Assembly (NCBI GenBank): GCA_947497315.1
Contig: CANMFX010000003.1
Span: forward strand, 1-64,000
Direction of reading: 5' to 3'
Origin: an uncultured Sphingomonadaceae bacterium
GTDB lineage: Bacteria > Pseudomonadota > Alphaproteobacteria > Sphingomonadales > Sphingomonadaceae
DNA: 64,000 bases
Of the stretch, positions 24,266 to 39,019 are shown in pieces. The notes beneath the pieces are model-generated. The model was not told where the DNA came from and searched no databases. It saw only the letters and a program-made list of their open reading frames with translations. Each line of letters starts with the position of its first letter. Position 1 is the first letter of the stretch. Made by a program: the position numbers and the translations under genes.

Positions 24266-25204
24266 TTAGAAAACACTGGTGAGCAGGGGCTTTCCATCCA
24301 AAAAATTCTCTATGTTTTTTTGCGTCAATTGCGCTTGTGCAAAAAGTGTTTCGAATGTGGTTCCGCCCTGATGGGGAGACAGGATGACGTTCGGTACATC
24401 AGCCCATGTTGAGCTATTCGTTGGCTCCAGGTCGAACACGTCAAGTCCGGCACCTGCCAATCGCCCCTCTTTCAAGCAGGTGATTAGTGCTTCCTCATCC
24501 ACAACGCTACCTCTCGAAACGTTGACGATCACGCCATCGCTGCCAAGTTGACCAATTAAGTCTTCATTTATCAGATTGTGTGTCGACTGATCGGGGCGGC
24601 AACATATAATCAGGCCTCGGCTTTGTTTCGCTAGTTCGTTGAGCGAATCGACATAAGGAACTGTAATTTCACTTTTCTGCCGGGGTCCCCACCATTTGAC
24701 ATTGACGCCGAACGGTTCAAGGCGTTTTACAACCTCCTTGCCAATCGATCCCATTCCAACAATGCCGATAGGCACGGAACGTATGGAATGTCGAATTGGA
24801 CCGCTTTTTGTGATCCATTTATCCGCCAGTATATATTGGTGCTTTTGCGGAATGTTCAAAAGTAAAGATGTCATCATCGTTACCGCAAGGTCCGCTACAT
24901 CGCCGGAATTTAGCCCTGGAGCGTTGGTAACAGCGATATCCCGAGACCTGCATTCATCAAGGTCGACATTGCTAAATCCGGCTGAGATTGATGCTATCAT
25001 TTTTAGATTAGGGAAACGGTCAAGCATCTCTTTATCGAGTTTCTCAATGCTTGCTGAGAGCATGATTTCGACGGCATCTCCCATGTCTGTGATCGTCTGC
25101 TCTAGATCTTCGCCAGTGCCGACAAATTCCCAGCGCTCAGGCGCATTCGGGAATAGCGTGAGCATATCAGGATGCATGGCTAGAATTTTGGCTGGATTAT
25201 TCAC
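24266..25204 (-). CDS. D-2-hydroxyacid dehydrogenase (NAD(P)-dependent), copy 1
   Basis: 312 residues. The nucleotide-binding motif is GIVGMGSIGKEVVKRLEPFG near residue 145. The catalytic set of the family is present: Arg in VNVSRGSVVDEEAL, Glu in DVFDLEPT, and His in LSPHQGGTT. Enzymes of this GyaR/GhrB type reduce 2-keto acids or glyoxylate. It closes the accessory block on the left. It has its own TGAAC-TC-GTTCA palindrome 54 bp upstream (25258-25269), suggesting its own regulated promoter although it follows the hydrolase gene by 115 bp. Confidence 0.9.
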   Translation of the reverse strand: MNNPAKILAMHPDMLTLFPNAPERWEFVGTGEDLEQTITDMGDAVEIMLSASIEKLDKEMLDRFPNLKMIASISAGFSNVDLDECRSRDIAVTNAPGLNSGDVADLAVTMMTSLLLNIPQKHQYILADKWITKSGPIRHSIRSVPIGIVGMGSIGKEVVKRLEPFGVNVKWWGPRQKSEITVPYVDSLNELAKQSRGLIICCRPDQSTHNLINEDLIGQLGSDGVIVNVSRGSVVDEEALITCLKEGRLAGAGLDVFDLEPTNSSTWADVPNVILSPHQGGTTFETLFAQAQLTQKNIENFLDGKPLLTSVF

Positions 25205-25257
25205 AAAAATGTTTCCTTCACAATATTCTCAAAAATTATGGGTTACCTCGGGTTCGT

Positions 25258-25269
25258 TGAACTCGTTCA
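25258..25269. promoter_or_regulatory. TGAAC-NN-GTTCA operator, site A
   Basis: Perfect palindrome TGAACTCGTTCA, extended to TTGAACTCGTTCAA. It is 54 bp before the start of the D-2-hydroxyacid dehydrogenase gene at 25204. One of four related sites in the accessory block. Confidence 0.7.
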
Positions 25270-25319
25270 AGTTGACCCCTGCTTTCCACATCGATTGCAA
25301 AAATTCATAAGTTGAAGAT

Positions 25320-26363
25320 TCAATCAGATTTTTGATGTTCTTCAATCAGCTCACGAATGGCCGCCGTGACTTCTTCCTTTCTCTCAAAGTGCGGCCGGTG
25401 AGCAGTGTTTTCGAGGGGAAGGACTACCATTGAGTCAGCTGAATTTTTGAAATCAATTGCCAGTTCTTCTGTCACAACCTGATCATCCTCGCCATATATG
25501 AAAAGAGCAGGTACGGTGACGCGCGCAGAACGAGAGGGCCAAAAATCACTATCTGTAATCTCATCAAACTCAGGAAAATTGGCCCGATACCAGTTGATGA
25601 AACGATCTGTTCGCCGTGGCTGACCGATATCTTCATGCAGCCTCTCGCCCTGTTGTTTTGTAATCAGGCCCTTTTCAACAAAGGGGGAATATGTATCCTT
25701 CCAAATCTGCTCTTTCACACCCATCAGCCGGATCAGAACCGGATTGGCTGATTTGAACAGAGACATGTAGGAGAAGGTTTCCCGGTATTTTGGATCGGTG
25801 TCGAGGCGGTGCAAGAGAATATTGTGCGGCAGTGCGCCTATCGCCGTAAGCGTGTTAGTCTTTGAGGGGTTGGCTTGGGCATAGGCCGTCGCGATGGCGG
25901 CTCCCCAATCATGCCCAACCACATGGACTTTTTTCAAATCGAGTTCATCGATCACATCCTCAAGGTGATTGACCAGCTTGTCTATCCTGTAATCATCAAC
26001 ATTACCTGGTGCATCAGACTTGCCCACCCCTAATCCATCAATAGCGATGACCTGATAGTCTGATTTAAATTCTTCCATCAACCCGAACATTGTGAACCAA
26101 TATGATGGAAATCCATGCAGAAATATGATCGCTTCGCCTTGGCCAGCGGAGACATAGTGAATCTGCTTTTCCTGCGATTGGACATAACCTTCGCTGTATT
26201 TAATGCCCTTTTCGTCCAACTCGTTTGCCAGAGTAACGGCGGGATCAATCGCATTTGTATCGGCCGCTATGGGCCAATAGGACCACGCATATAAGCCGGA
26301 AAAGACTAGAACCAGAACAGCCACAATTCCAACTATCCAGCGCTTTAATCGGCCAAAAGCCAT
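25320..26363 (-). CDS. Membrane-anchored alpha/beta hydrolase, epoxide-hydrolase type
   Basis: 347 residues. One N-terminal membrane segment (WIVGIVAVLVLVFSGLYAWS, about residues 9-28) anchors the protein with the enzyme probably on the periplasmic side. IIFLHGFPSYWF has the HGxP oxyanion motif. The nucleophile is Asp in VVGHDWGAA, not Ser, which places it with epoxide hydrolases and haloalkane dehalogenases. GEDDQVV and TAHRPHFER supply the acid and the histidine. The substrate is unknown. It lies between the VOC-type lipoprotein gene (71 bp upstream) and a dehydrogenase in the same direction. Confidence 0.85.
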   Translation of the reverse strand: MAFGRLKRWIVGIVAVLVLVFSGLYAWSYWPIAADTNAIDPAVTLANELDEKGIKYSEGYVQSQEKQIHYVSAGQGEAIIFLHGFPSYWFTMFGLMEEFKSDYQVIAIDGLGVGKSDAPGNVDDYRIDKLVNHLEDVIDELDLKKVHVVGHDWGAAIATAYAQANPSKTNTLTAIGALPHNILLHRLDTDPKYRETFSYMSLFKSANPVLIRLMGVKEQIWKDTYSPFVEKGLITKQQGERLHEDIGQPRRTDRFINWYRANFPEFDEITDSDFWPSRSARVTVPALFIYGEDDQVVTEELAIDFKNSADSMVVLPLENTAHRPHFERKEEVTAAIRELIEEHQKSD

Positions 26364-26434
26364 ATTTCGGTCTCCGTTATCAGATGTTCGGTTTGTGGGT
26401 GAAATGCCAATTCCAGGTAAAACGGGTTAAGCGC

Positions 26435-27490
26435 TCAGGAGGTTCCGTCTCCAGCGAAGTTCTGGGATGAAAATACCGATTTTGATCCCAATTTCTGGAA
26501 GCCCAACAGGTTTCCATCCAAGTCGCGCGCAATCATTATCTGCCCGCCATCCATTGGCTTTGCTTCGCTAACGATTGTCCCGCCGGCGGTGATCAGCTTT
26601 TCCCTCGCCGCCTTCATGTCTTCAACGTCAAAGACGATCATCGAAAATCCGGGAGCATCAAAGGGCCTTGGCTTGTCGGGTAAAGATGTTGGATGGCTTG
26701 TATATTGTGCGATTTCGAGCTCCATATTCCGCACTTGGAAAAACGCCATTTTGAGCTTTGTATCCGGAAGCCCAGAGACACTGTCGAAATTTTCACCTTG
26801 GAGGTTGATCAATCGGCCCAATCGGCGCGGTTCTTCCTGTTCGAGCAGTATCGAGTAAAACTTTACGATGCGGTCAAAATCAGGAGTGGCAAGCGCAACA
26901 TGCCTGATCCGATAGTTATATTTGGGCGGCGTCGCGCGATCCAGCTTGCTGATATCCACATGCTCAAATTCATACATCGTCCGATTGGCATCACGGGCAT
27001 AAGCATATTCCACGGGATTATTTTCACTCAAGCTAGTCATATTCTGGGTGCCATTGACCGGTTTCGCGCCGGCCTCCAGAAACTTCGAATAGGCCTTAGT
27101 TGTCTTGTTCACCTGAAAAGCCACATGGGCAATTCCCGGCCCATATACCTCAACTTTGGGATATTCTTTGCGCGAAGCATCCGCATCTTCAAATTGAATG
27201 AAGCGAAGCTGTGCGTTGTTGCTCCGCATCAACCGCGTTTTGGCAACAAATTTGCCCCGGCCGAGCAGTGCATTAGATCCTGGTACTTGATCAAGATTGC
27301 GCTCATCCACCATTTCCAGCTTCACCGTTTCGCCATATAATTTGGTAGCCTGATCAAGATCGTTGACGGTCACTGCCACATAGTTGATTCCCCGGACTAC
27401 CGCGTCATCAGGACGCTCTGATGCTTCGCCAAAGACCAGAAAAGAACAACCGCCCAATAGACCAAATAAAGGAAGAAGCAGAAAACGCAT
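26435..27490 (-). CDS. Lipoprotein with two VOC (glyoxalase/dioxygenase-fold) domains
   Basis: 351 residues. A short lipoprotein signal ends in LLGGCSFL (Cys15). Two VOC domains follow, at about residues 33-185 (GINYVAVTVNDLDQATKLYG; GPGIAHVAFQV; TMYEFEHV) and 195-345 (YRIRHVALATPDFDRIVKFY; FSMIVFDVEDM). Metal ligands are incomplete: in domain 1 the first His is Tyr (NYVAV) while the later His and Glu remain; in domain 2 the first His remains but the later positions are Met and Gly. An ordinary extradiol dioxygenase is therefore doubtful. A lipid-anchored VOC protein is uncommon. The shared operator site B is 84 bp upstream. Confidence 0.8.
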   Translation of the reverse strand: MRFLLLPLFGLLGGCSFLVFGEASERPDDAVVRGINYVAVTVNDLDQATKLYGETVKLEMVDERNLDQVPGSNALLGRGKFVAKTRLMRSNNAQLRFIQFEDADASRKEYPKVEVYGPGIAHVAFQVNKTTKAYSKFLEAGAKPVNGTQNMTSLSENNPVEYAYARDANRTMYEFEHVDISKLDRATPPKYNYRIRHVALATPDFDRIVKFYSILLEQEEPRRLGRLINLQGENFDSVSGLPDTKLKMAFFQVRNMELEIAQYTSHPTSLPDKPRPFDAPGFSMIVFDVEDMKAAREKLITAGGTIVSEAKPMDGGQIMIARDLDGNLLGFQKLGSKSVFSSQNFAGDGTS

Positions 27491-27573
27491 CTTGAGATAT
27501 CTCCGGAAATATCGCGGCCGCTTGAGGCATCTCTAAAGTGCCGCGCAGCTATTGATGATACCGCATTTTACAA

Positions 27574-27585
27574 TGAACATGTTCA
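27574..27585. promoter_or_regulatory. TGAAC-NN-GTTCA operator, site B
   Basis: Perfect palindrome TGAACATGTTCA in the 215-bp gap between the VOC lipoprotein gene (start 27490, minus) and the first TetR gene (start 27706, plus). It is 84 bp from the former and 121 bp from the latter, so the TetR could control both itself and the left operon. Confidence 0.72.
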
Positions 27586-27705
27586 AATTACGGAACTATG
27601 GCTATCAATGTCAACTCAAATTTGCCATCAGGCGGCTGCTCGCTAAGCTGCATGGCTTAACCGGACATATTCAGCTAATTACATTGGATACCTAGAGAGA
27701 ATTTG

Positions 27706-28314
27706 ATGCCAAGACCTGCCATTACCCCAAAAAAAAGGCTTGAAACACGTGAGCATATCCGTGCGGCGGCGGCCACCTTGGTCCGGCAGGGCAGTCCGGA
27801 AAAAATTACCATTCGGGCCGTTGCAAAACAGGCCGGCGTGTCGGTTGGAACGATCTACAAATATTTTGAGGATATTTCAGACCTTGGGCGTTCGCTCTGG
27901 CAGGAGCCGGTTGATGAACTGCGCCGGCAGATGTCTGACATTGCAAAAAACAATGACGATCCAGTCAATAGAATTCGGGCATTGTTACAGGCCTATGCAG
28001 ATTTTGCCCATAAGAACCACAGGGTCTTCCGGGGTGCCTTCCTGTATGTACGTCCGGATTCAAGGCAGTTACCGGATCAGGCCGCATTAAAGGATGAACC
28101 ATTTTTTAGATATCTGGAAACCGCAATTGCCGATGGCCAAGAGGCTGGTGTTTTTGTCGATGGTAGCAAAAAAATGCTGGCGCAGCTGCTATGGGCGGCT
28201 CTTCATGGCGCGCTGGCTTTACCCCACAATATTGAGCGTGTTGCCTTTGATCCATCCGAACAGATTGCCGCTGCAATGATCGATTCTATTATGGTGATGA
28301 TCCAAAAAAGCTAA
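27706..28314 (+). CDS. TetR-family regulator 1 of the accessory block
   Basis: 202 residues. The DNA-binding domain spans MPRPAITPKKRLETREHIRA to AGVSVGTIYKYFEDISDLG. The ligand domain contains RVFRGAFLYVRPDSRQLPDQ and AALHGALALPHNIERVAFDP. These stretches closely match TetR 2 at 33839-34519 (FKGAMLYVRPD, AIHGALALPINLERFSFD), so the two are recent paralogs with similar recognition helices. It is divergent from the VOC/hydrolase operon with the palindrome at 27574 between them. It is a good candidate to bind TGAAC-NN-GTTCA. The ATG at 27706 is used instead of the TTG one codon upstream. Confidence 0.92.
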   Translation: MPRPAITPKKRLETREHIRAAAATLVRQGSPEKITIRAVAKQAGVSVGTIYKYFEDISDLGRSLWQEPVDELRRQMSDIAKNNDDPVNRIRALLQAYADFAHKNHRVFRGAFLYVRPDSRQLPDQAALKDEPFFRYLETAIADGQEAGVFVDGSKKMLAQLLWAALHGALALPHNIERVAFDPSEQIAAAMIDSIMVMIQKS

Positions 28315-28502
28315 GAGGGCTGAAATTATGCCAGCGCGCCCGGCTGTTTCCCTAGCCGGCCGTTAACGTCGAACTCACGACTTAAAAATCTTCTGCAAGA
28401 ACAGTTCCAGATTTGCGCGCCCGGTTGGTTGAAAGTGAGTTCATTGACCTGGGAAGTCTCTGTGCCATCCGCCAACTTGACACGAAGCATCACTATTTAT
28501 AT

Positions 28503-28514
28503 TGAACATGTTCA
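28503..28514. promoter_or_regulatory. TGAAC-NN-GTTCA operator, site C
   Basis: Perfect palindrome TGAACATGTTCA, identical to site B, 45 bp before the start of the sterol-desaturase-type gene at 28559. Confidence 0.72.
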
Positions 28515-28558
28515 TTAAATAAATGATTCCGGTTAATCCGAACTTACGGGGGGACAGA

Positions 28559-29752
28559 ATGGCGGCCACGAAGTCTTTTTCTGCAGATCAGAACAATATA
28601 AGATTTGAGGGAGAAAAACCGTACAAGAATAAATCCCTGCCTACTCGTGCCCATTTGGCTCGGCATCTCGAGAAATGGTTGGGAATGCCGCTTAATATCC
28701 TGGAATCTGTCGGATCTTATGTAATCGTGCGACCCATGAACTGGACTTTTGGTCTTCTCGATGGGTTATCTTACAAACTGGAGGGCACCCACCTCAAGCG
28801 TGTGTTGCAGCATGTCATTTTCCCGATAACAATTGTTCTTTCAGTTATTTTTGGATTTGAGATTGCCAAAACCGGTATGACTTTACAGTCATTGGGATTG
28901 ATAGCGATTATATTCGGGATCAAGGGACTGGTATTCGGATCGCTTGAGCGACTGATGCCCTTCAGCCGGAACTGGCTGGAAGGCGGTAATGACACATCTG
29001 TGGATGTCATGATGCTCGCCTCTGGCGCATTCTGGAACGGCTTTTCAAAGTATCTGTTACAAGTGTTGTTCTTGACCAGTTTGGTAAGCTATTTAGAGCC
29101 ATATGGCCATTCTCTATGGCCTTCTGAACTACCTGGTGTTGTGCAGGTTTTCCTGTTTTTATTGATCAAGGATTTCTTCCGCTACTGGCTCCACCGTGCG
29201 ATGCATGAAATTCCATTTCTATGGCGCTTTCATGCTACACATCATTCAGTGAAACGCCTCTACTGGCTTAATGGGATTCGCAGCCATCCAATGGAAGTTG
29301 TTGGGCAAGCATTTTTCTATGTAATCCCCTTTGCGCTTTTACAGCCTTCTGCGGAAATTGTGTTGGTTGCGGTTTTGATGCAGTTCGCCATCGGCACTTT
29401 TCAGCACGCCAATATCGATCTCAAACTGGGCTTTTGGGAATATATATTCTCGATTGGCGACAATCATCGTTATCATCACTATCCCAACAAAGAAGTGGGC
29501 GATTCCAACTATGGTGGCGAATTTATCGTTTGGGACATTTTATTTGGTACCTTCCACAAAGTACCGGGCGAACGTCCACATGATAAGATAGGAATTGGAA
29601 CGGCCCCCAACTATCCAATGACGATGGCTGGATTGATGATCGCGCCCTTTTTGCCGAACCAGAAGGTCTTTGGGGATAACAACGATGAGATGCCCGAAGA
29701 TAAACTTGCAGCGAGCGAATCCGAAGCCGGTCCGACACTAAAGCCAAGTTGA
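28559..29752 (+). CDS. Fatty acid hydroxylase/sterol desaturase family membrane enzyme
   Basis: 397 residues. A di-iron integral membrane oxygenase: the histidine motifs are HRAMH (RYWLHRAMHEIPFLWRFHAT), HATHHS and DNHRYHHYPN, with several membrane helices before and between them. Members hydroxylate or desaturate sterols, fatty acids, carotenoids or alkyl ethers. The N-terminal 60 residues are hydrophilic and not recognised. The ATG at 28559 has GGGGGG close upstream and is preferred to 28523. The operator site C sits just before it, so it is probably induced with the other block genes. It is the only obvious oxygenase in the block. Confidence 0.9.
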   Translation: MAATKSFSADQNNIRFEGEKPYKNKSLPTRAHLARHLEKWLGMPLNILESVGSYVIVRPMNWTFGLLDGLSYKLEGTHLKRVLQHVIFPITIVLSVIFGFEIAKTGMTLQSLGLIAIIFGIKGLVFGSLERLMPFSRNWLEGGNDTSVDVMMLASGAFWNGFSKYLLQVLFLTSLVSYLEPYGHSLWPSELPGVVQVFLFLLIKDFFRYWLHRAMHEIPFLWRFHATHHSVKRLYWLNGIRSHPMEVVGQAFFYVIPFALLQPSAEIVLVAVLMQFAIGTFQHANIDLKLGFWEYIFSIGDNHRYHHYPNKEVGDSNYGGEFIVWDILFGTFHKVPGERPHDKIGIGTAPNYPMTMAGLMIAPFLPNQKVFGDNNDEMPEDKLAASESEAGPTLKPS

Positions 29753-29904
29753 TGCAGAATATATGATCATTGTAGATTTGTGGGTCGGCAGGCAGCGGTT
29801 GAGTCTGAGATAATCACAATGGGCTTAACTTCACTCAGCCCTCTATCTAATCGCAGCCTTTGTCGGTGTCGTGCGATTACAAGCCGTTGAATCCGTCAGA
29901 AAGC

Positions 29905-30843
29905 TTAGTAGCCTTGAGTCAGATCCATTCTCGGTTCTACAGGCTCGCTGGCCAGATATCTGTGGATGTTTTTGATAAACCGCTCGGTCGAACGTATCAG
30001 CATCTTGTCCTGCGCCTTGCCTGAGAGATGCATCGAGATATGGACATTTTCCAGCGACCATAGCGGATGTTCGGCCGGCAAGGGTTCGGGCGTTGTTACA
30101 TCCAGAAATGCGCCGCCGATCTGCTTGCTTGTAAGGGCTTCCAATAAAGCCGGCTGGTCGATCACTGTTCCCCGAGCAACGTTTACAATCACGCAATTGG
30201 ACTTCATCGAAGCCAGTTCAGCTTGTCCAATCATACCGTCGGTTTCAGGCGTTGCCGGAACGGCAATGATAACCCAATCAAAATCGGATAGCTTCGATCG
30301 CCACTGGTCAGGACTTAGTGTATCTTGTCCAGTGCTACGCCTGACGACTGTAACATCAACATCGAACGCCTCCAGCCGTGGCTTCACCAATTTTCCTATC
30401 GCTCCATATCCCAGAAGGAGTGCTTTGCTGCCCGCAAGTTCGCGTTTTCCTGGTGAATCCTGCAACCATTCGCGGCGCTCCTGCGCCCGCATGACATCCC
30501 GGTAACCCTTCGCAATGTTGAGCATGCCCATCACCACATATTCAGCGATAGTTATCGCATTTATGCCAGTTCCGTTGGTCACGGTGACATCGCGTTCCAA
30601 CAATACATCCAGCGGCAGAAAATCTAGACCGGCAAATATCGAGTTGAGCCATTTGAGGTTTTCCGCAGCCCGGATCGCTTCGATCATGGCTGCCTGATCA
30701 TGCATATCGAACCAGCCAATCTCTGCCTTCGGGGCAATCTTGATTGCCTCTTCCGGAGTCATGAACCAGCGCACATCAAGGGCATCGGGCAAATGCGGCT
30801 CCAGCAAAGGTCGAGCCAGAGCGGAAAGGGCAGCGATAGTCAT
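29905..30843 (-). CDS. D-2-hydroxyacid dehydrogenase, copy 2
   Basis: 312 residues. The nucleotide-binding motif is LLLGYGAIGKLVKPRLEAFD. Catalytic residues are Arg in VNVARGTVIDQPAL, Glu in TTPEPLPAEHPLW and His in ISMHLSGKAQD. It is only distantly related to copy 1 at 24266-25204 and the HLSG sequence near the His differs from the usual HxGG, so the substrates are likely different. It lies 109 bp downstream of the amidohydrolase gene in the same direction and is probably in one operon with it. Confidence 0.88.
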   Translation of the reverse strand: MTIAALSALARPLLEPHLPDALDVRWFMTPEEAIKIAPKAEIGWFDMHDQAAMIEAIRAAENLKWLNSIFAGLDFLPLDVLLERDVTVTNGTGINAITIAEYVVMGMLNIAKGYRDVMRAQERREWLQDSPGKRELAGSKALLLGYGAIGKLVKPRLEAFDVDVTVVRRSTGQDTLSPDQWRSKLSDFDWVIIAVPATPETDGMIGQAELASMKSNCVIVNVARGTVIDQPALLEALTSKQIGGAFLDVTTPEPLPAEHPLWSLENVHISMHLSGKAQDKMLIRSTERFIKNIHRYLASEPVEPRMDLTQGY

Positions 30844-30952
30844 AGAGCATCCTCAGGTTGGTCAAATGCTAAAATTGAGAAGGGAAGGCAAAATTTATCC
30901 CGGTCCGGAGCGTGGTTCCGAACCGGGATATAATGATCACGGTAATCGAGGA

Positions 30953-32119
30953 TCAGATGCCGTAAAGCTTCTTCACATTGTCATAGGTGATTTTCCTCCG
31001 AACTTCTTCGCCATGATCAGCAAACATTTCATCAAGAACGTCTGCAGAACACGGGAAAGTCGAGTCGGTATGCGGAAAGTCCGATCCCCACATAAGATTG
31101 TCTACGCCGATGATACCGCGGGTCAGTAGCGCTGGCTGATCATCCTCAATAGTGGCGTAGAATTGACGGTGCCATGTTTCAAATACGACGTCTTCGTATG
31201 GAATGTGATTTGGATCAGCGCCAGCATCGCGCTGCCATGCTTGATCAAGTCGGTCGAGGAAATGCGCAACCCAGCCGGCATTGAATTCCGCCAAGACGAA
31301 TTTGACGTTGGGAAAGCGCTTGCAGACGCCGCGCACTATCAGGTCCACCATGGTTTGGTGGATCAGCGACTGGCTGTTGCCATAGAGCGCCAGCTTGTCG
31401 CGTTTTACAGCTTCCATCACCCAAGGCGGAGCATATGAGAAGCAACCAACATGCATGGAAATCGGCGTACCGCTTTCCTCGGCCAACGCCCAAATCGGAT
31501 CATAAACTTCGTCAGCGTAACTGGTGCCTTCGGGCGCATTGGAGGGGATGATCACACCCTTATAGCCAAGTTTCAGTACACGTTTAAACTCTTCCACTGC
31601 GGTGATAGGGTCCTGAACCGGTAGGGCTGCGAGGCCGTAAAGACGCCCTTTGGACTGACTACATTCATCCATCAACCAGTCGTTATAATTCCGCTGTAGC
31701 TCGATCAGCAGATTGAGGTTGGGCGAACGGAACATCGGGAAATAGCCCGGGTAGAGAACTTCTGCCGAAACACCATCAGCATCCTGACATTCTCCCCGCC
31801 GCGAGCCTTCCTTGAGGCCTGGATGCAAGGCGCTATATCCGTTTTTGATATAGTTCTGAATCTCTGGATCGGTCACTTTGCCGGCCTTGGGTTTGTGCCC
31901 CGGCCGACGCTCCACTGGCTCATCCCGATCAACACGCGTGGCTGCGAGCGCCATATTGGCAACTGGAACACCGGCATCACCCTTGTTCGGTACAAAAATT
32001 ATGTCACCCGCCCCTTCTTTGGAAATAACACGCGGAGCGTCGTCACCATATTTTTCCTCCAGGCCTGCAAAGACATCTGGCATTTCAACAACATGCGAAT
32101 CGGCAGAAATTGCTTTCAT
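30953..32119 (-). CDS. Amidohydrolase family 2 (ACMSD-like) metal-dependent enzyme
   Basis: 388 residues. The TIM-barrel family includes decarboxylases and hydrolases that use one metal ion. Ligand motifs are ISADSHVVEMPD at the N-terminus (DxH in place of HxH), ISMHVGCF near residue 228, and GSDFPHTDSTFP near residue 350. VFFETWHRQFY-like spacing is also present. The sequence NKGDAGVPVANMALAATRVD and the length suit the group found in aromatic and terpenoid degradation clusters, but the reaction is not predictable. Its promoter carries operator site D 53 bp before the start. Confidence 0.85.
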   Translation of the reverse strand: MKAISADSHVVEMPDVFAGLEEKYGDDAPRVISKEGAGDIIFVPNKGDAGVPVANMALAATRVDRDEPVERRPGHKPKAGKVTDPEIQNYIKNGYSALHPGLKEGSRRGECQDADGVSAEVLYPGYFPMFRSPNLNLLIELQRNYNDWLMDECSQSKGRLYGLAALPVQDPITAVEEFKRVLKLGYKGVIIPSNAPEGTSYADEVYDPIWALAEESGTPISMHVGCFSYAPPWVMEAVKRDKLALYGNSQSLIHQTMVDLIVRGVCKRFPNVKFVLAEFNAGWVAHFLDRLDQAWQRDAGADPNHIPYEDVVFETWHRQFYATIEDDQPALLTRGIIGVDNLMWGSDFPHTDSTFPCSADVLDEMFADHGEEVRRKITYDNVKKLYGI

Positions 32120-32171
32120 CTTGGAATCCTCCTTTTTTGCCTTGCTTTTCCGGCAAGGATATATTTTAAAT

Positions 32172-32183
32172 TGAACTCGTTCA
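32172..32183. promoter_or_regulatory. TGAAC-NN-GTTCA operator, site D
   Basis: Perfect palindrome TGAACTCGTTCA, identical to site A, 53 bp before the amidohydrolase start at 32119. Sites A and D are thus at almost the same distance from their genes. Confidence 0.72.
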
Positions 32184-32380
32184 GTTTATTATTTGCTATT
32201 CCATAGAAAGTCAATAAGGTGTTTCGACAGGCTTGGAAGAACCGGGAATCAATCCGGCTCCGAGCAGCTTGCACGCACTATGCGTCGCGATTGGAGAGAG
32301 AAGACAATAGTGCCTGAAAGGGCGCTGGAGTCAGTCGAGCGGTGATCCAAGAACCGCCAGACTTGGGAGGATGAACGGAA

Positions 32381-33805
32381 ATGCAGGACCAGATCGATGG
32401 CAAGACCCGAATCACATATGGATTGGGGAATGCCTCGAGCGGGATAAAAGAAAGCGCGTTTAGTGTATTTCTCATTTTCTATTACACTCAGGTAGTTGGT
32501 ATATCAGCCTCATTGGCTGGCTTTGCAGTCTTTTGCTCACTGGTGGTGGACGCGATCAGCGACCCCTTAATTGGCCACTGGTCCGACAGACTGCGGTCAC
32601 GCTGGGGCCGCAGGCATCCGTTCATGTATGCCTCCATCGTGCCACTCGCCCTATCATTCTATTTCTTGTTCAACCCTCCAGAAGGCATTGATTCCCAATT
32701 CGGCTTCGCCTGGCTGCTGGTATTCGCGGTGTCTGTGAGGCTGTGGATTTCATTTTATTTAATTCCCTCAACCGCGATGATCGCCGAGATGACATCCAAC
32801 TATCACGAACGGACCAAGCTGGTCAGCCTGCGCGGTTTATTCGCCTGGGGTGGCGGCATCGGCATGTCATTCATGGCCTATAGTTTTCTATTCACTGCAA
32901 CAGATGCCTATCCAGACGGAAGACTTAATCCCACAGCCTATGAAACATATGGCTTCATAGGGGCGCTGGCCCTGGTCATCTCGATTACAATCAGCTCAAT
33001 CGGCACACATCATCTAATACCTTTTCTGGACAAGCGCATACCAAAAGATCAAAAGAGTCTGGGCTTCTTCACTGAATTCCACTCGATTTTCAAAACCAGC
33101 GCGTTTCGCATATTGTTTTTTGCGATGCTAATAGGATCTGTGACCAATGGTGTTCTGGATACACTGCGCCTGTTTATAAACACCTATTTTTGGGGCTTCA
33201 CAAGTAGCCAGCTTTCCATCTTGCTAATCGGTACAGTTGGGGGCGTAGTGGTAGCATTTGCCGGAATAAAATTCTTTAGCGCGAGGATTGAGAAAAAACC
33301 ATTGGCGATCATCTTCATGACAATTACCGTGATCTCATACACGTTGCCTATCCTATTGCGATTGATCGGCTGGATGCCGGAAAACGGTACCAACGCACTT
33401 TTGGTGCTTATCATCCTCGCGACAGCTGCCAGCGCGATCGGCGGGTTTGGCGCAGCCGCATTGGGCGCGTCTATGTTGGCTGATGTAGTCGACATCCACC
33501 ACTTGCATTCCGGTTCAAGGCTAGAGGGTATGCATTTCTCCTCCTTCACCTTTTCCGCCAAGGCGACTACCGGCATTGGCGGCTTTGTTGCGGGTATCGC
33601 GCTCGATGTGATCCAGTTTCCAACAAAAGCAGAGCCCGGGACGGTGTCCGAAGCTACAATTTTTGCCCTAGGTGGAATGAACGCGTTAATCATAGGTGTT
33701 ACGCTGGGCATATCGCTGTTGATTCTGTTCCGCTACCCGATTGACAAGAAGCAGCATTCGGACGTTGTCAACTTGCTAAATCTAAAAAAACAGCCCCCCC
33801 TATGA
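32381..33805 (+). CDS. MFS permease of the GPH (sugar:cation symporter) type
   Basis: 474 residues with 12 predicted membrane segments. The N-terminal part reads GKTRITYGLGNASSGIKESA; DPLIGHWSDRLRSRWGRRHP is the signature loop between helices 2 and 3 of the MFS_2/GPH group. Classic members import sugars or glucuronides with Na+ or H+; sphingomonad relatives are often found in catabolic clusters. Here it may import a polar product of the pathway. No TGAAC palindrome was found before it. The paralogous TetR 2 follows 33 bp downstream. Confidence 0.9.
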   Translation: MQDQIDGKTRITYGLGNASSGIKESAFSVFLIFYYTQVVGISASLAGFAVFCSLVVDAISDPLIGHWSDRLRSRWGRRHPFMYASIVPLALSFYFLFNPPEGIDSQFGFAWLLVFAVSVRLWISFYLIPSTAMIAEMTSNYHERTKLVSLRGLFAWGGGIGMSFMAYSFLFTATDAYPDGRLNPTAYETYGFIGALALVISITISSIGTHHLIPFLDKRIPKDQKSLGFFTEFHSIFKTSAFRILFFAMLIGSVTNGVLDTLRLFINTYFWGFTSSQLSILLIGTVGGVVVAFAGIKFFSARIEKKPLAIIFMTITVISYTLPILLRLIGWMPENGTNALLVLIILATAASAIGGFGAAALGASMLADVVDIHHLHSGSRLEGMHFSSFTFSAKATTGIGGFVAGIALDVIQFPTKAEPGTVSEATIFALGGMNALIIGVTLGISLLILFRYPIDKKQHSDVVNLLNLKKQPPL

Positions 33806-33838: not shown

Positions 33839-34519
33839 ATGCCTAGGCCGGCAATCACCGCAGAAAAGCGAGCCCAGGTCCGCCAACGCATTAGGGAGTG
33901 TGCGTCGCGGATTGCCAAGTCCAAGGCTGCCGGTGGTCAGACGACAGTGCACTGGTCAACGGCCATAACTGTCCGCGAAATTGCCGAAGAGGCCGGCATA
34001 TCTGTTGGGACATTTTACACCTATTTCGATAGTTTGGCTGCTCTGGTACAATCGACTTGGCGTGAACCTGTCGATCAACTCAAGAAGGATATTGAACGCG
34101 ACATCGCCAAGACCGATGATCCGCGCGAACAGGTGCGCATCTTGTTACAGCACTACGTCGATCTGGCTATGAATAACGAACGAATGTTTAAGGGCGCAAT
34201 GCTATATGTCCGTCCAGACCATGTGGAAAGGACCGAGCAGACACCGTTCGAAGAAGACGAATATTTCCAATATCTGCAGGCAGCACTTGTTAGGGGCCAG
34301 GAGATTGGTGCATTCCGCAACTTCGACTGCCGTGAAATGACACAGCTGCTGTTGGCAGCCATTCATGGCGCGTTGGCCCTGCCGATAAACTTGGAACGGT
34401 TCAGCTTTGATCGCTCGTCCGAACTCGCCGAAGCGATGATCGCTCAGCTTATGATACTGCTCTCTGACAATCACCAAGAGCAGAAAAGTCAGCTACCAGA
34501 AAGCACTAGTGACGAATAA
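33839..34519 (+). CDS. TetR-family regulator 2 of the accessory block
   Basis: 226 residues. Starts MPRPAITAEKRAQVRQRIRE like TetR 1 and shares its recognition helix (AGISVGTFYTYFDSL) and ligand-domain stretches (FKGAMLYVRPDHVERTEQTP; AAIHGALALPINLERFSFDR). An insertion of about eight residues (KAAGGQTTVHW) before the helix-turn-helix distinguishes it. GGAGA precedes the ATG at 33839. It is placed between the permease and the TonB receptor. It probably recognises a similar site to TetR 1; which of the two is the main regulator cannot be told. Confidence 0.9.
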   Translation: MPRPAITAEKRAQVRQRIRECASRIAKSKAAGGQTTVHWSTAITVREIAEEAGISVGTFYTYFDSLAALVQSTWREPVDQLKKDIERDIAKTDDPREQVRILLQHYVDLAMNNERMFKGAMLYVRPDHVERTEQTPFEEDEYFQYLQAALVRGQEIGAFRNFDCREMTQLLLAAIHGALALPINLERFSFDRSSELAEAMIAQLMILLSDNHQEQKSQLPESTSDE

Positions 34520-34594: not shown

Positions 34595-37090
34595 ATGTCG
34601 ATTAGGTCGATTAAGAGTACGCTATTGTTGGGCCTCAGCACGGCCGCATTAACGGTACCGACGGTAGCTTTGGCGCAAAATGATGCGAGTGACGAGCAGT
34701 CGTCAGATAAGTTAATCATCGTTACCGCATCCAAACGTGAAACGACTTTACAGGAAACACCTATTGCTGTTTCGGTAACGTCTGCGGAACAGATTGAACA
34801 ATCAGTAGTCCGAGATCTATTCGATATCCAAACCCTGGTGCCATCGTTGAGGGTTGGTCAAAGTCAGGATTCCGCCAGCACCAGCTTTTCAATTCGCGGC
34901 TTTGGCAATGGTGGAAATAATCTTGGTATCGAACCTTCTGTCGGCATCTTTATAGACGGCGTCTATCGCTCTCGCTCGGCAGCGGCGATTAGTGACCTGC
35001 CGAATGTCCAGCGTATTGAGGTGCTTCGAGGTCCTCAATCTACTCTCTTCGGCAAAAACGCCTCTTCAGGTATCATCAGCGTAGTCACTCAGGAGCCGCA
35101 GTTTGAATTTGGTGGGTCCGCAGAGATTTCTTATGGAAACTTCAACGCATTTATAGCTAAAGCTAACGTCACCGGACCATTGGGCGAGACAGTGGCGGCG
35201 AGCCTTTCAGGCAGTATCAACCGGCGCGATGGTTACGCCGAGGACGTCAATCTGGGCTTTGAGATCAATGAACGGGATCGTTGGGCAATCCGGGGCCAGC
35301 TGCTGTTCGAACCGACCGAAGATCTCAGCATCCGTTTGATCGCCGACTATGATCGAATAGATGAAGTATGCTGTTCTTCGGTGAATATTGTGGATGGCCC
35401 GACCGGCAATATAGTGCGTGCGCTAGGCGCTACAATCGTTTCAAATGACCGTTTTGGAACAACAAGCTCTTCCAACTTTGAGCCGGTAAACGAAATCGAT
35501 AATTTTGGTGTTTCGCTGCATGGTGACCTGGATCTTGGGGGCGTTACTCTATCTGCGATTGCGTCATATCGCGGCGTCAGATCCTTCAGCGACGGGGATT
35601 CTGACTACACCAATCTGGATTCAATCCGGACGAGCGCCAATCAGGATGACTTGGACACCTATACGGTTGAATTGCGAGCTGCGTCCGACTTCGATGGTCC
35701 TGTCAACTTCCTTGCTGGTGCTTTCCTGTTCAAGGAAGATATAGCCCTTACGGGAAATTTTGAATATGGCCCTGGCTTCGCACAATTCGCAAATGCCGTT
35801 TCGGGCGGACAATATAGCGCTCTGGAACCTACACTTCGCGCATTAATTCCATCAATTCCCGCCGGTGAATTTGGCGGCGTTGGCCAAGGGCGCGTGACCG
35901 ACTTTGACTACAACAACTCGGCCATTTCGATCTTCGGTCAAGTTGATTGGGAGATTGTCGAAGGCCTGACCTTTACTGTCGGCGGCAACTTCACTCATGA
36001 TGAGAAAGATGTTGTCCAGAACAACGTCAGCACCGATGTTTTCTCAGGCATCGACCTTGTGCAGGCGGGGGTCGCTGCGGGCGTTCCGGCAGCGCTGGCA
36101 ACTAACCCGACATTCAATCCGTTCCTTGGATTGCGAGCACTTCAGTTTACGCCGCCATTTCTTAATTTCCCCAACTCTGTTGAAGATGGCCAGACCGAAG
36201 ACAGTGATCTGTCCTATACTTTCCGGTTGGCATACGACGTGACTGACAATGTCAGTTCATACGTAACCTATGCAACGGGTTTCAAGGCATCCTCCTTCAA
36301 TCTTTCGGCGGATAGCCGTCCATTCGCAGCGGATTTTATCCCAGGTTCGGATTTTCAGGTCCCCGCACCAGCGCCATCACCAATCCGGGATGCGGGCCTC
36401 GCGGTAAATAACCTGACAACCGGCACCCGCTTTGCTGGTCCGGAAGAAGCTGTTCTTTATGAGATCGGCATCAAAGGCCAGTGGTCGAACGGTGCAATAA
36501 ACGTTGCATTGTTTGATCAAACCCTAAATGGCTTTCAGGACAACGTCTTTACCGGAACAGGTTTCGTGCTCGGGAACGCGGAGAAACAATCCGTACGAGG
36601 GTTTGAAGTCGATGGATCTTTCACACCGGTCGATGGGCTTACTTTTACCGCGGCTTTGACCTATCTGGACGCCGAATATGACAGCTTTACGGGTGGCTCA
36701 GCCTTTGACCCTGCAACATTGACCATCGTTCCTGCTGATCTTTCGGGTCAAAGACCAGCCGGCATTCCCGAGTGGAGCGGCTCCATTGGCGGGACATATT
36801 CGCATTCGTTTGACAGCGGAAACAAATTGACGCTCCATGTCGACTTCTTTTTCGAAAGCGAAACTCAGCTCGCCGAGGGGTTACCCCAGTTTACCCGCTC
36901 GGTGAATGAGCTGAATGCATCTGCCACTTTCGGATTATCCAACGGACTGGACTTCACGATCTGGGGCCGCAATTTGACGAAAGATATCTATAATACGGGA
37001 ATCTTTCCAACCACGGCGCAGGCCGGTTCACTATCGGGTTTCAGGAACTTCCCGCGTACTTACGGAGCATCCGTCAAATTCCGGTTCTGA
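34595..37090 (+). CDS. TonB-dependent outer membrane receptor
   Basis: 831 residues. The signal peptide ends at VPTVALAQND (about residue 28). The TonB box region is KLIIVTASKRETTLQETPI. The plug has SFSIRGFGNGGNNLGIEPSV and IEVLRGPQSTLFGKNASSGI, and the 22-strand barrel ends in GASVKFRF. Receptors of this kind bring hydrophobic or bulky substrates across the outer membrane. It sits with a permease and regulators, so it probably handles the block's substrate. Upstream only half of the operator motif is present (GTTCA at 34541), so its control may differ. Confidence 0.95.
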   Translation: MSIRSIKSTLLLGLSTAALTVPTVALAQNDASDEQSSDKLIIVTASKRETTLQETPIAVSVTSAEQIEQSVVRDLFDIQTLVPSLRVGQSQDSASTSFSIRGFGNGGNNLGIEPSVGIFIDGVYRSRSAAAISDLPNVQRIEVLRGPQSTLFGKNASSGIISVVTQEPQFEFGGSAEISYGNFNAFIAKANVTGPLGETVAASLSGSINRRDGYAEDVNLGFEINERDRWAIRGQLLFEPTEDLSIRLIADYDRIDEVCCSSVNIVDGPTGNIVRALGATIVSNDRFGTTSSSNFEPVNEIDNFGVSLHGDLDLGGVTLSAIASYRGVRSFSDGDSDYTNLDSIRTSANQDDLDTYTVELRAASDFDGPVNFLAGAFLFKEDIALTGNFEYGPGFAQFANAVSGGQYSALEPTLRALIPSIPAGEFGGVGQGRVTDFDYNNSAISIFGQVDWEIVEGLTFTVGGNFTHDEKDVVQNNVSTDVFSGIDLVQAGVAAGVPAALATNPTFNPFLGLRALQFTPPFLNFPNSVEDGQTEDSDLSYTFRLAYDVTDNVSSYVTYATGFKASSFNLSADSRPFAADFIPGSDFQVPAPAPSPIRDAGLAVNNLTTGTRFAGPEEAVLYEIGIKGQWSNGAINVALFDQTLNGFQDNVFTGTGFVLGNAEKQSVRGFEVDGSFTPVDGLTFTAALTYLDAEYDSFTGGSAFDPATLTIVPADLSGQRPAGIPEWSGSIGGTYSHSFDSGNKLTLHVDFFFESETQLAEGLPQFTRSVNELNASATFGLSNGLDFTIWGRNLTKDIYNTGIFPTTAQAGSLSGFRNFPRTYGASVKFRF

Positions 37091-37148: not shown

Positions 37149-37781
37149 CTACTCGGTATTTTGTTTAACGATTCCGGTATCTGAAGAGCGGTAAACGCTC
37201 ATTATCATTTCAGTGGTCAAGCCTGCTATGTCCTCCAGATCTGCACCGGTTTCCAGCATGAATTGGCCCGCCGATGCGGGCATACCATAAGCAATTGCCG
37301 CTTTGGCGCGCGCGGTTTCTGGCGGCAATTCGAAAATCTTGGTAGCGGTGCGCGCGAAAAAACGGATCAGGTTATCGCGACCTCGTGAACGGAGCTTGGC
37401 ATTGTTTTTGACAGATGGTTCCGCCTCCAGCCGTTCTATGATCTGGCCCCGTTCTTGTGCAAAGCGTAAATAGACCGTTGTCATGGATCGCACGAGTTCT
37501 TCAAAATTCTCTGGATTCTTGACGACCTTGGTTTGGGCAAGTCGCATGGCCCGAAGTTCCCGCGTAAGCAGCTGGACGAGCACTTCGTTCAAGTTGGTAA
37601 AATATTTATATACCAGCGATTTGCTGATCCCTGCTTCGCGGCCTATCCTCTCAATTGAAATCTTAGCAACACCCTCTTTCGAGATTATTCTTGATGCATG
37701 ATCAAGGATCAACTCCCGCCGTGTTTCGGGGCTCAGTCGCGTTCGCTTTCTAGTCGGTTTTACATGCGTGCGAGTGTTCAT
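37149..37781 (-). CDS. TetR-family regulator 3
   Basis: 210 residues. The helix-turn-helix is ISIERIGREAGISKSLVYKY. It is not closely related to TetR 1 and 2: the recognition helix differs (SKSLVYKYF) and the ligand domain lacks the YVRPD and HGALALP stretches. The C-terminal domain contains AYGMPASAGQFMLETGADLE. It lies 62 bp downstream of the flavin-reductase fusion gene in the same direction, so it may regulate that gene. The ATG at 37781 was preferred to a TTG at 37793. Confidence 0.88.
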   Translation of the reverse strand: MNTRTHVKPTRKRTRLSPETRRELILDHASRIISKEGVAKISIERIGREAGISKSLVYKYFTNLNEVLVQLLTRELRAMRLAQTKVVKNPENFEELVRSMTTVYLRFAQERGQIIERLEAEPSVKNNAKLRSRGRDNLIRFFARTATKIFELPPETARAKAAIAYGMPASAGQFMLETGADLEDIAGLTTEMIMSVYRSSDTGIVKQNTE

Positions 37782-37843: not shown

Positions 37844-39019
37844 TTAGGCTTCGGTCCAGATATGGCGAGCGAGATCGAGAATAAGGTCATGCAATGGATG
37901 CGCCGAAGCACTACGGTTTCGAACGAGAGAGATATCAATGGATTCGGTATCGACATCAAGCTTTCTTGATACCACTGCCGCACTGCCGCCGCGCGCGGCG
38001 ATATTGGTCAATACTACAGCGAAACCCAATTCCTCCCTTACCATTGCCCGTGCCATTTCTAGCGAGGAAGATCTGTAGAGGGTGTTCGGGGTTACACCAT
38101 GTTCTAGCATAAGACTTTCGACTCTTTGGCTCGCAGCTTTGTCGATCGCCGATATCATCGGTTCGCCCGACAAATCCGCCGGTGAGATTGTGTTTTTCTC
38201 CGCCAATCGATGGTTCGCCGCGATCAAAACGTGAGGAGAAAGCGATGCCACCGGAGCCATTGAAAGCTCGCTACCGAAATCGTTGCCATACATCACCGCA
38301 CAGTCGATTTCGCCGGACATCAGCCCCAGGGTCAATCGTCTGCGATCACCTTCGATAAGGTTTAACCGAACCGGATGGCCTGCCTCCTTCAGCTTCCTGA
38401 CCAGGGTCGGCAGAAGATAGGGTGCGAACGTGTGGAAGCATCCGATCGACAGCGGCAGTGCATCTTCCGATCCGTCTTCGCAGGGCGCAGGACCGAAATT
38501 GACGGGCTGGACAGAACCATAAGCTCTGTTGGCGTAGGTCAGCGCATTGCCAGAACCGGACAGTTCGATATGCTGAACTTCACCAAAAATCACATGATGC
38601 AAGCCGACCTTCTTGGTCGAAACGATCCGGCAATCCAACGCCGCCAACGCATCAACAATCGCAGGTGCAGCGGTTGCGTGCGTCGTCCAGCTTGCGGCGC
38701 TAAACTTGTCGTTCACCGCTTCCTTATACCGTCCAGCGAAAACGTCGGAAATGTAGGATTGATGTTCGTGCAGGATATTGACGCAAAAAACTCCATTGCC
38801 AAGGATTTTCTGGGTGGCTGAATTCTTCTCGTTTAAGCAAACGAGCAAAGTCGGTGGATCGGTATCTGCTGATACCGATGACATCGCCGAAACGGTTACA
38901 CCTGCACGGCCTTCTGTCCCATCGGTAGTGACGATATTCACAGTTGCTGGCGCAAAGCTCATCGCATCAAAATATTTTTGCTGGAGCGACGGATTCTCAA
39001 TCCCAGTTTTTCCTGTCAA
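37844..39019 (-). CDS. Flavin reductase fused to a LysR-type effector-binding domain
   Basis: 391 residues of unusual make-up. Residues 1 to about 175 form a flavin reductase-like FMN-binding domain (YFDAMSFAPATVNIVTTDG; GVTVSAMSSVSADTDPPTLL; FCVNILHEHQ; HHVIFGEVQHIE). From about residue 190 to 391 follows a LysR substrate-binding domain (LSIGCFHTFAPYLLPTLVRK; LTLGLMSGEIDCAVMY; ISAIDKAASQRVES), with no helix-turn-helix. A fused sensor domain could gate flavin reduction by a pathway ligand, as the C-terminal MarR-like domain does in the 4-hydroxyphenylacetate hydroxylase reductase. The start is TTG at 39019; an in-frame stop lies close upstream and the first ATG (residue 20) would cut the flavin domain. 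No oxygenase partner is adjacent. Confidence 0.85.
   Translation of the reverse strand: MTGKTGIENPSLQQKYFDAMSFAPATVNIVTTDGTEGRAGVTVSAMSSVSADTDPPTLLVCLNEKNSATQKILGNGVFCVNILHEHQSYISDVFAGRYKEAVNDKFSAASWTTHATAAPAIVDALAALDCRIVSTKKVGLHHVIFGEVQHIELSGSGNALTYANRAYGSVQPVNFGPAPCEDGSEDALPLSIGCFHTFAPYLLPTLVRKLKEAGHPVRLNLIEGDRRRLTLGLMSGEIDCAVMYGNDFGSELSMAPVASLSPHVLIAANHRLAEKNTISPADLSGEPMISAIDKAASQRVESLMLEHGVTPNTLYRSSSLEMARAMVREELGFAVVLTNIAARGGSAAVVSRKLDVDTESIDISLVRNRSASAHPLHDLILDLARHIWTEA

Follow-up and report, generated by a model that had tools for sequence, protein, structure and literature searches.

A TGAAC palindrome as the probable operator core of a TetR subfamily in a gene block of an uncultured Sphingomonadaceae bacterium

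FadR of Bacillus subtilis is a fatty-acid regulator of the TetR type. A TetR repressor of lipid (cholesterol) degradation is described in mycobacteria, KstR, which acts as a dimer on its own gene and on many lipid genes, with the 14-bp palindrome TAGAAC-N2-GTTCTA as operator (PMC1995591). In sphingomonads, EdcR of Caenibius is presented as an estrogen-dependent TetR repressor (PMC8700777). We analysed the first 64,000 nt of contig CANMFX010000003.1 (assembly GCA_947497315.1) of an uncultured Sphingomonadaceae bacterium; this whole stretch is called the window below. It carries TGAAC palindromes to which KstR is the nearest known system, with the same GAAC-N2-GTTC core and spacing.

We consider it probable (roughly 85%) that this palindrome is the operator core of one TetR subfamily, represented in the window by the paralogues TetR1 and TetR2, and that it governs an autoregulated regulon, probably repressed until a ligand releases the regulator. 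In all likelihood the regulon is real, with three sites in the block and two candidate regulators of one family. The analysis shows the co-occurrence of site and regulator family, the positions of the sites, their conservation, and the absence of the site before one orthologous gene whose genome gave no such regulator. Binding, repression rather than activation, operon structure and the ligand are inferred.

Palindromes of the window and of the TetR family

The 12-mer TGAACNNGTTCA is a 5+2+5 palindrome with TGAAC half-sites. Perfect copies at 25258, 27574, 28503 and 32172, with centres TC, AT, AT and TC, had been listed in the initial annotation and are indeed present; 0.06 copies are expected per window, and none of 100 shuffles contained four or more. 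The distances given there also hold: the coordinate differences are 54 from 25258 to the dehydrogenase start at 25204 and 53 from 32172 to the amidohydrolase start at 32119, 45 bases separate the 28503 site from the FA_hydroxylase ATG at 28560, and 27574 lies within the divergent gap between the VOC gene and TetR1. An alternative FA_hydroxylase ATG at 28523 appears in the open reading frame (ORF) list; alignment with relatives favours 28560. LexA-type sites have the form GAAC-N4-GTTC, and an assignment to this type was set aside on spacer length.

The genome (3.42 Mb, nine contigs) holds nine copies of TGAACNNGTTCA, four of them within one 6.9 kb; of the five others, four are inside mechanical ORFs and one is not. 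The 12-mer alone is common (4–19 per genome in 32 members of the genus), so that the genome-wide count proposed in the initial annotation is uninformative as a test. What is unusual is the clustering of the 12-mers, not their presence.

The regulators and sites are as follows (bits refer to the operator matrix described below).

27706..28314, plus strand: TetR1, presumed regulator; PF00440 and PF13305; placed by the family tree; nine-helix AlphaFold model, mean pLDDT 88.4
33839..34519, plus strand: TetR2, paralogue of TetR1 and second presumed regulator; PF00440; 44% identical to TetR1 and in the same supported tree group
27568..27591, no strand: candidate operator 1, divergent VOC/TetR1 gap; 28.1 bits; VOC start at 83 bases, TetR1 start at 120
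28497..28520, no strand: candidate operator 2, before FA_hydroxylase; 34.8 bits
32166..32189, no strand: candidate operator 3, divergent gap between amidohydrolase and GPH transporter; 28.2 bits; its core is 52 bases from one start and 197 from the other
25252..25275, no strand: doubtful site before dehydrogenase 1; perfect 12-mer; 9.5 bits

By sequence, TetR1 and TetR2 belong to one TetR family. Their identity extends over 209 aligned columns, and both match the helix-turn-helix domain PF00440 (37.5 and 33.6 bits, cut-off 24). TetR1 also matches the C-terminal domain PF13305 (36.4 bits, cut-off 26.8); the C-terminal Pfam matches of TetR2 are all below cut-offs, and a further TetR gene at 37149 has no PF13305 match. 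In a tree of 46 TetRs, built by a quick method with SH-aLRT support only, one supported group of 17 (98) holds TetR1, TetR2, their kin and five of the seven rows labelled by an amidohydrolase; all 26 Coq4-linked rows, the other two amidohydrolase rows and locus L022 fall outside it. Both window TetRs share one supported group, the 11-row group having 95. Relatives of TetR1 are scarce close to home: at E 1e-15, 6 of 298 genomes of the bacterial family have one, the weakest being 28% identical. TetR2, searched at 1e-20 in 396 genomes of the order, returned the TetR1 group and the same genes of genomes G038 and G142, and nothing closer. No TetR1 relative was found in the plasmid collection at 1e-10, and the fold search gave general TetR relatives.

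A peptide-pattern scan for the TetR over 84,980 species, one genome per species, yielded 42 loci, which were thus chosen by TetR peptide and not by motif. Their records are named Sphingomonadaceae, Caulobacterales, Gammaproteobacteria, Acidimicrobiales, Acidobacteria, Deltaproteobacteria and Myxococcota, and many are metagenome bins. In these loci TGAACNNGTTCA outnumbers every other 5+2+5 palindrome, with 44 copies spread over 37 of the 42 loci and 18 copies for the runner-up. The 59 other half-sites of the same composition have a mean of 0.5 and a maximum of five copies, and with any of the ten remaining spacer lengths between 0 and 10 TGAAC occurs 0–4 times. Leaving aside close kin of the window (L030, L031) and partial, weak matches (L070, L071), 38 loci (L032-L069) contain 39 sites in 35 loci: 33 sites, in 32 loci, are no more than 1.5 kb from the TetR gene (135 kb of DNA) and six are beyond (537 kb). 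Five of the six distant sites have an extrapolated amidohydrolase, GPH or VOC start within 170 bases (the VOC protein being 25% identical in L033), and the sixth, L033:14560, lies 0.4 kb from one of these. By comparison, control loci around relatives of the TetR at 37149, all from the window's bacterial family, contained no copy of TGAACNNGTTCA (30 loci, 106 kb; 30 of 32 places found).

In 22 loci the site lies 43–98 bases before an extrapolated Coq4-like start, with Coq4 upstream of the TetR gene on the same strand; in G142, which has a Coq4-TetR pair, it precedes Coq4 by a coordinate difference of 56 bp; in other loci it precedes amidohydrolase, GPH, VOC, FA_hydroxylase or TetR starts. In the window the palindrome is found at the regulators' own promoter or presumed operon, 27574 before TetR1 and 32172 before GPH-TetR2, and the amidohydrolase-GPH-TetR arrangement recurs in L037 and L047.

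A Coq4-like gene was seen beside the TetR gene in G142 (L024) and in 25 of the 42 loci (L038, L040-L045, L048, L050-L054, L056, L058-L066, L068 and L069, with records named after several phyla). It is on the TetR strand and upstream of TetR, except in L044, where the two are divergent.

The extended operator and the site at 25258

Read on both strands, the 39 sites of other genomes give an operator consensus of ~24 bp, ATWAAWTGAACRYGTTCAWTTWAT. The scoring matrix was built without the window, and the 39 family sites, each scored left-out, range from 18.7 to 40.1 bits. Two block sites of G243, which were not used for the matrix, score 35.1 and 36.9 bits. Perfect 12-mers outside the blocks reach −2.8 to 16.8 bits in the own genome (all five) and −8.5 to 15.8 bits in G153 and G243 (14 of 27 copies scored). 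Centres vary in the loci, with a purine-pyrimidine bias in 31 of 44. An AT-centred pair 1.6 kb apart on contig C1 of G153 was considered as a second regulon and rejected: both copies fall within ORFs of 513 aa that resemble each other, and they reach 5.4 and 4.6 bits.

Three of the window palindromes form conservation islands within diverged DNA. The one at 27574 is kept in L030, in G153 (to which L032 belongs) and in G243, and is one base off in L031; 28503 is kept in L031, G153 and G243; 32172 is kept in L030 and L031, and L037 and L047 have a palindrome at the corresponding position. In L030 no FA_hydroxylase match was found, and the operator before that gene is missing as well.

The initial annotation had counted all four palindromes as one regulon. 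Should this be so, 25258 would be a young or weak operator and the dehydrogenase a direct target; the 12-mer is perfect, stands at a promoter-like distance and is identical in the near-copy L030, and chance expectation is low. We nevertheless regard this four-site version as rather unlikely. The site falls below the lowest of the left-out family sites, its flanks alone score −8.8, within the range of chance copies, and of the two fetched relatives that hold the region, L030 is unchanged whereas L031 has one base changed in each half. In a 161-base alignment, 7 of 13 variable columns lie within the 27 columns around the site. With its wrong flanks and its changes in L031, we take 25258 to be probably accidental, or else weak, and probably no operator. 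Dehydrogenase 1 may still be read through from the VOC promoter, the gaps being 71 and 115 bases.

Reach of the regulon and alternative explanations

A search of the whole genome for the extended operator with at most three mismatches returned six places (reversed control, one): the three block sites, position 111565 of contig C4 and two places with a non-palindromic core. The C4 site (27.2 bits) lies ~50 bases before a second FA_hydroxylase gene, and G142 has a perfect operator (34.8 bits) at the same distance before the orthologue of that gene. At E 1e-60, FA_hydroxylase relatives occur in 5 of 298 genomes. The operator precedes them in the own genome (G000, contigs C3 and C4), G142, G153 and G243, all of which gave a family TetR; in G278, which has an FA_hydroxylase relative and gave no family TetR, the best score in the 4.1-kb locus is −1.4. 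The extended search gave 1–8 hits in each of 15 relatives (control 0–3). All hits in G089, G203 and G278, where no family TetR was found, have three mismatches, and among eight further genus members the best are one two-mismatch hit each in G568 and G569. Judging by these sites, the regulon probably has at least one member outside the block, the hydroxylase-type gene on C4, and thus extends beyond the gene set first proposed.

An 88-aa ORF on C4 (L139:8737-9003), ~1.2 kb from this site and behind a 384-aa ORF, resembles the TetR1/TetR2 family at both ends and lacks the middle, including the recognition helix. It is apparently an internally deleted relic of a third family TetR, although a faulty assembly could also explain it; in the former case the C4 site is probably regulated in trans. 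The surrounding region (C4:104000-123900, L139) looks like a second island of the window type, with matches to VOC (two), FA_hydroxylase, GPH transporter and TonB receptor; a Coq4-like gene and two TetR genes related to 37149 are matched there as well.

A TetR-controlled regulon, as initially proposed, is strongly supported by the way the palindrome accompanies the TetR family in loci of several phyla, evidence that comes from outside the window. The proposal has to be amended in that two paralogous TetRs of one family are present and either or both may bind. It is doubtful that they have private targets, TetR1 the AT-centred sites (VOC, FA_hydroxylase) and TetR2 the TC-centred site (amidohydrolase/GPH). 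Each TetR does adjoin its own gene group, one of which recurs, as noted, in L037 and L047; yet the recognition helices are alike (SVGTIYKYF and SVGTFYTYF), sites before amidohydrolase genes elsewhere have AC, GC, GT or AT centres, and G153 (L032), where only one family TetR was found, has a TC/GA-centred VOC site. The TC and AT centres were rejected as a mark of two regulators.

Where the recognition helix departs most from the others, in L061 and in the G038 TetR, half-sites shift toward AGAAC, the half-site of KstR, though not in every half. L061 (helix SPSR) shows AGAAC on both sides. G038 (L021/L022, helix AASG) has four sites; in three of them one half reads AGAAC, and the remaining one combines TGAAC with an altered second half. 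AGAAC also appears on one side of the L046 site, where the helix is an ordinary one (SIGT). Evidence that helix and half-site covary is suggestive at most.

A wider proposal, which we hold tentatively and at somewhat less than even odds, is that a near-invariant operator code serves the whole TetR subfamily (~40% protein identity, several phyla) in two settings, the compact Coq4-TetR pair and catabolic islands that combine PtmU3-like and sterol-desaturase-type enzymes with a GPH transporter and a TonB receptor. As such a code hardly drifts, TetR1 and TetR2 in one cell would share targets across islands and contigs, making a single cross-wired regulon with one class of oxidised hydrophobic compound as its signal.

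That a regulator of another family binds the palindrome and TetR1/TetR2 merely tend to be nearby seems very improbable. Binding by TetR1 and TetR2 is a prediction and another TetR gene (37149) is close; still, the site accompanies the TetR1/TetR2 family in several phyla, mostly at the promoter of the TetR gene or presumed operon, and it is absent from all 30 loci sampled for the 37149 family. The least probable explanation of all is chance, or a dispersed repeat. It could draw on the abundance of the 12-mer in the genus, and it is opposed by the clustering, the flanking consensus, the conserved islands and the family-wide link; chance is already unlikely for three sites and could account for 25258.

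Several points qualify the reading of an operator shared by the TetR1/TetR2 family. A sigma-70 consensus scan, uninformative as a whole, found no −35/−10 pair at operators 1 and 2, and at operator 3 it gave two weak matches (32137-32192, plus strand), the region having 14 matches vs 9.4 (sd 2.5) in shuffles. The perfect site is absent from 3 of the 38 loci: L046 and L061 have variant palindromes (24.5 and 22.9 bits) and L034 has nothing above 2.8. No feature was seen that would assign a site to TetR1 or to TetR2. The matrix included the G153 sites (L032), the comparison with G278 amounts to one case, and the control TetR family was sampled within one bacterial family rather than across phyla. 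The four-site form suffers in addition from the low score of 25258 and its change in L031.

Gene content and comparison with known systems

The other genes of the block are listed below.

24266..25204, minus strand: D-2-hydroxyacid dehydrogenase 1 (PF02826), 115 bases after the hydrolase
25320..26363, minus strand: alpha/beta hydrolase (PF00561), 71 bases after VOC
26435..27490, minus strand: two-domain VOC (glyoxalase-fold) protein (PF00903); adjoins TetR1 in G153 and G243; lipoprotein-like start by eye
28560..29752, plus strand: FA_hydroxylase, sterol-desaturase-type membrane enzyme (PF04116)
29905..30843, minus strand: D-2-hydroxyacid dehydrogenase 2 (PF02826), downstream of the amidohydrolase
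30953..32119, minus strand: Amidohydro_2 enzyme (PF04909)
32381..33805, plus strand: GPH-type MFS transporter (PF13347)
34595..37090, plus strand: TonB-dependent receptor, 75 bases after TetR2; NCBIfam TonB-receptor models matched below their cut-offs

The two dehydrogenases are 30% identical to each other (249 columns). A terminator-like stem of 14 pairs (30896-30930, minus strand) lies between amidohydrolase and dehydrogenase 2, which may therefore be separated or attenuated. The window FA_hydroxylase resembles a fusion of two tandem genes of L031 (window 28300-29752; L031:10595-13300), since operator and gene start are like the first L031 copy and the DNA from ~28654 matches the second at 88%. 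By eye, an ORF at 37844-39019 (minus strand) combines flavin-reductase-like and LysR-type substrate-binding parts and has no DNA-binding domain.

In the proposed mechanism a TetR dimer would bind the ~24-bp site ATWAAWTGAACRYGTTCAWTTWAT at three promoter regions: VOC(-hydrolase-dehydrogenase)/TetR1, FA_hydroxylase, and amidohydrolase/GPH-TetR2-TonB receptor. Bound TetR would repress these targets and its own gene until released by a ligand, probably the imported hydrophobic substrate or a derivative, and the regulon would serve uptake and oxidation of some hydrophobic substrate. That the substrate is hydrophobic is a guess drawn from the PtmU3-like and sterol-desaturase-type enzymes, the TonB receptor, the GPH transporter and the KstR-like operator core. 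PtmU3 belongs to the diterpenoid platensimycin. The window amidohydrolase matches PF04909 with 125.5 bits; PtmU3 is the first of 38 matched distinct PDB sequences (E 1.1e-36), and the nearest solved chains are PtmU3 and DitZ. PtmU3 and the window enzyme share a SADSHV stretch near the N-terminus. PtmU3 and AibH2 are described as dinuclear-metal hydroxylases of PF04909 (PMC10401708); the window enzyme may nonetheless be a hydrolase.

Uncharacterised enzymes, among them a possible dinuclear-metal hydroxylase and the Coq4-like protein, thereby gain a candidate operator, a regulator family and a testable gene set. The operator could be used to find further pathway members in genomes with the regulator and, given the ligand, the regulator/operator pair could serve as a biosensor. 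In the open-licence PMC literature we found no mention of TGAACNNGTTCA, nothing for GAACNNGTTC together with TetR, only an ion-channel study for TGAACATGTTCA together with TetR, nothing for amidohydrolase with DitZ and, by titles and abstract starts, nothing on a pairing of Coq4 with TetR and operon.

Among solved TetRs, FadR of Bacillus subtilis ranks high by sequence profile (second) and fold (sixth), whereas the FadR model gives TetR1 45.4 and TetR2 38.2 bits against a cut-off of 200. EdcR is likewise a catabolic TetR repressor from a sphingomonad, and its palindrome recurs at several promoters within a single cluster; its proposed operator, TnnCnnTACnAnTnGTAnnGnnA, is unrelated to that of the window. 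TetR1 and TetR2 score 34.5 and 34.7 bits with the NCBIfam KstR model, far below its cut-off of 280. Compared with those of KstR, the window sites share the core and differ in the half-site (TGAAC, not AGAAC), in a longer operator with an AT-rich consensus and in the set of genes.

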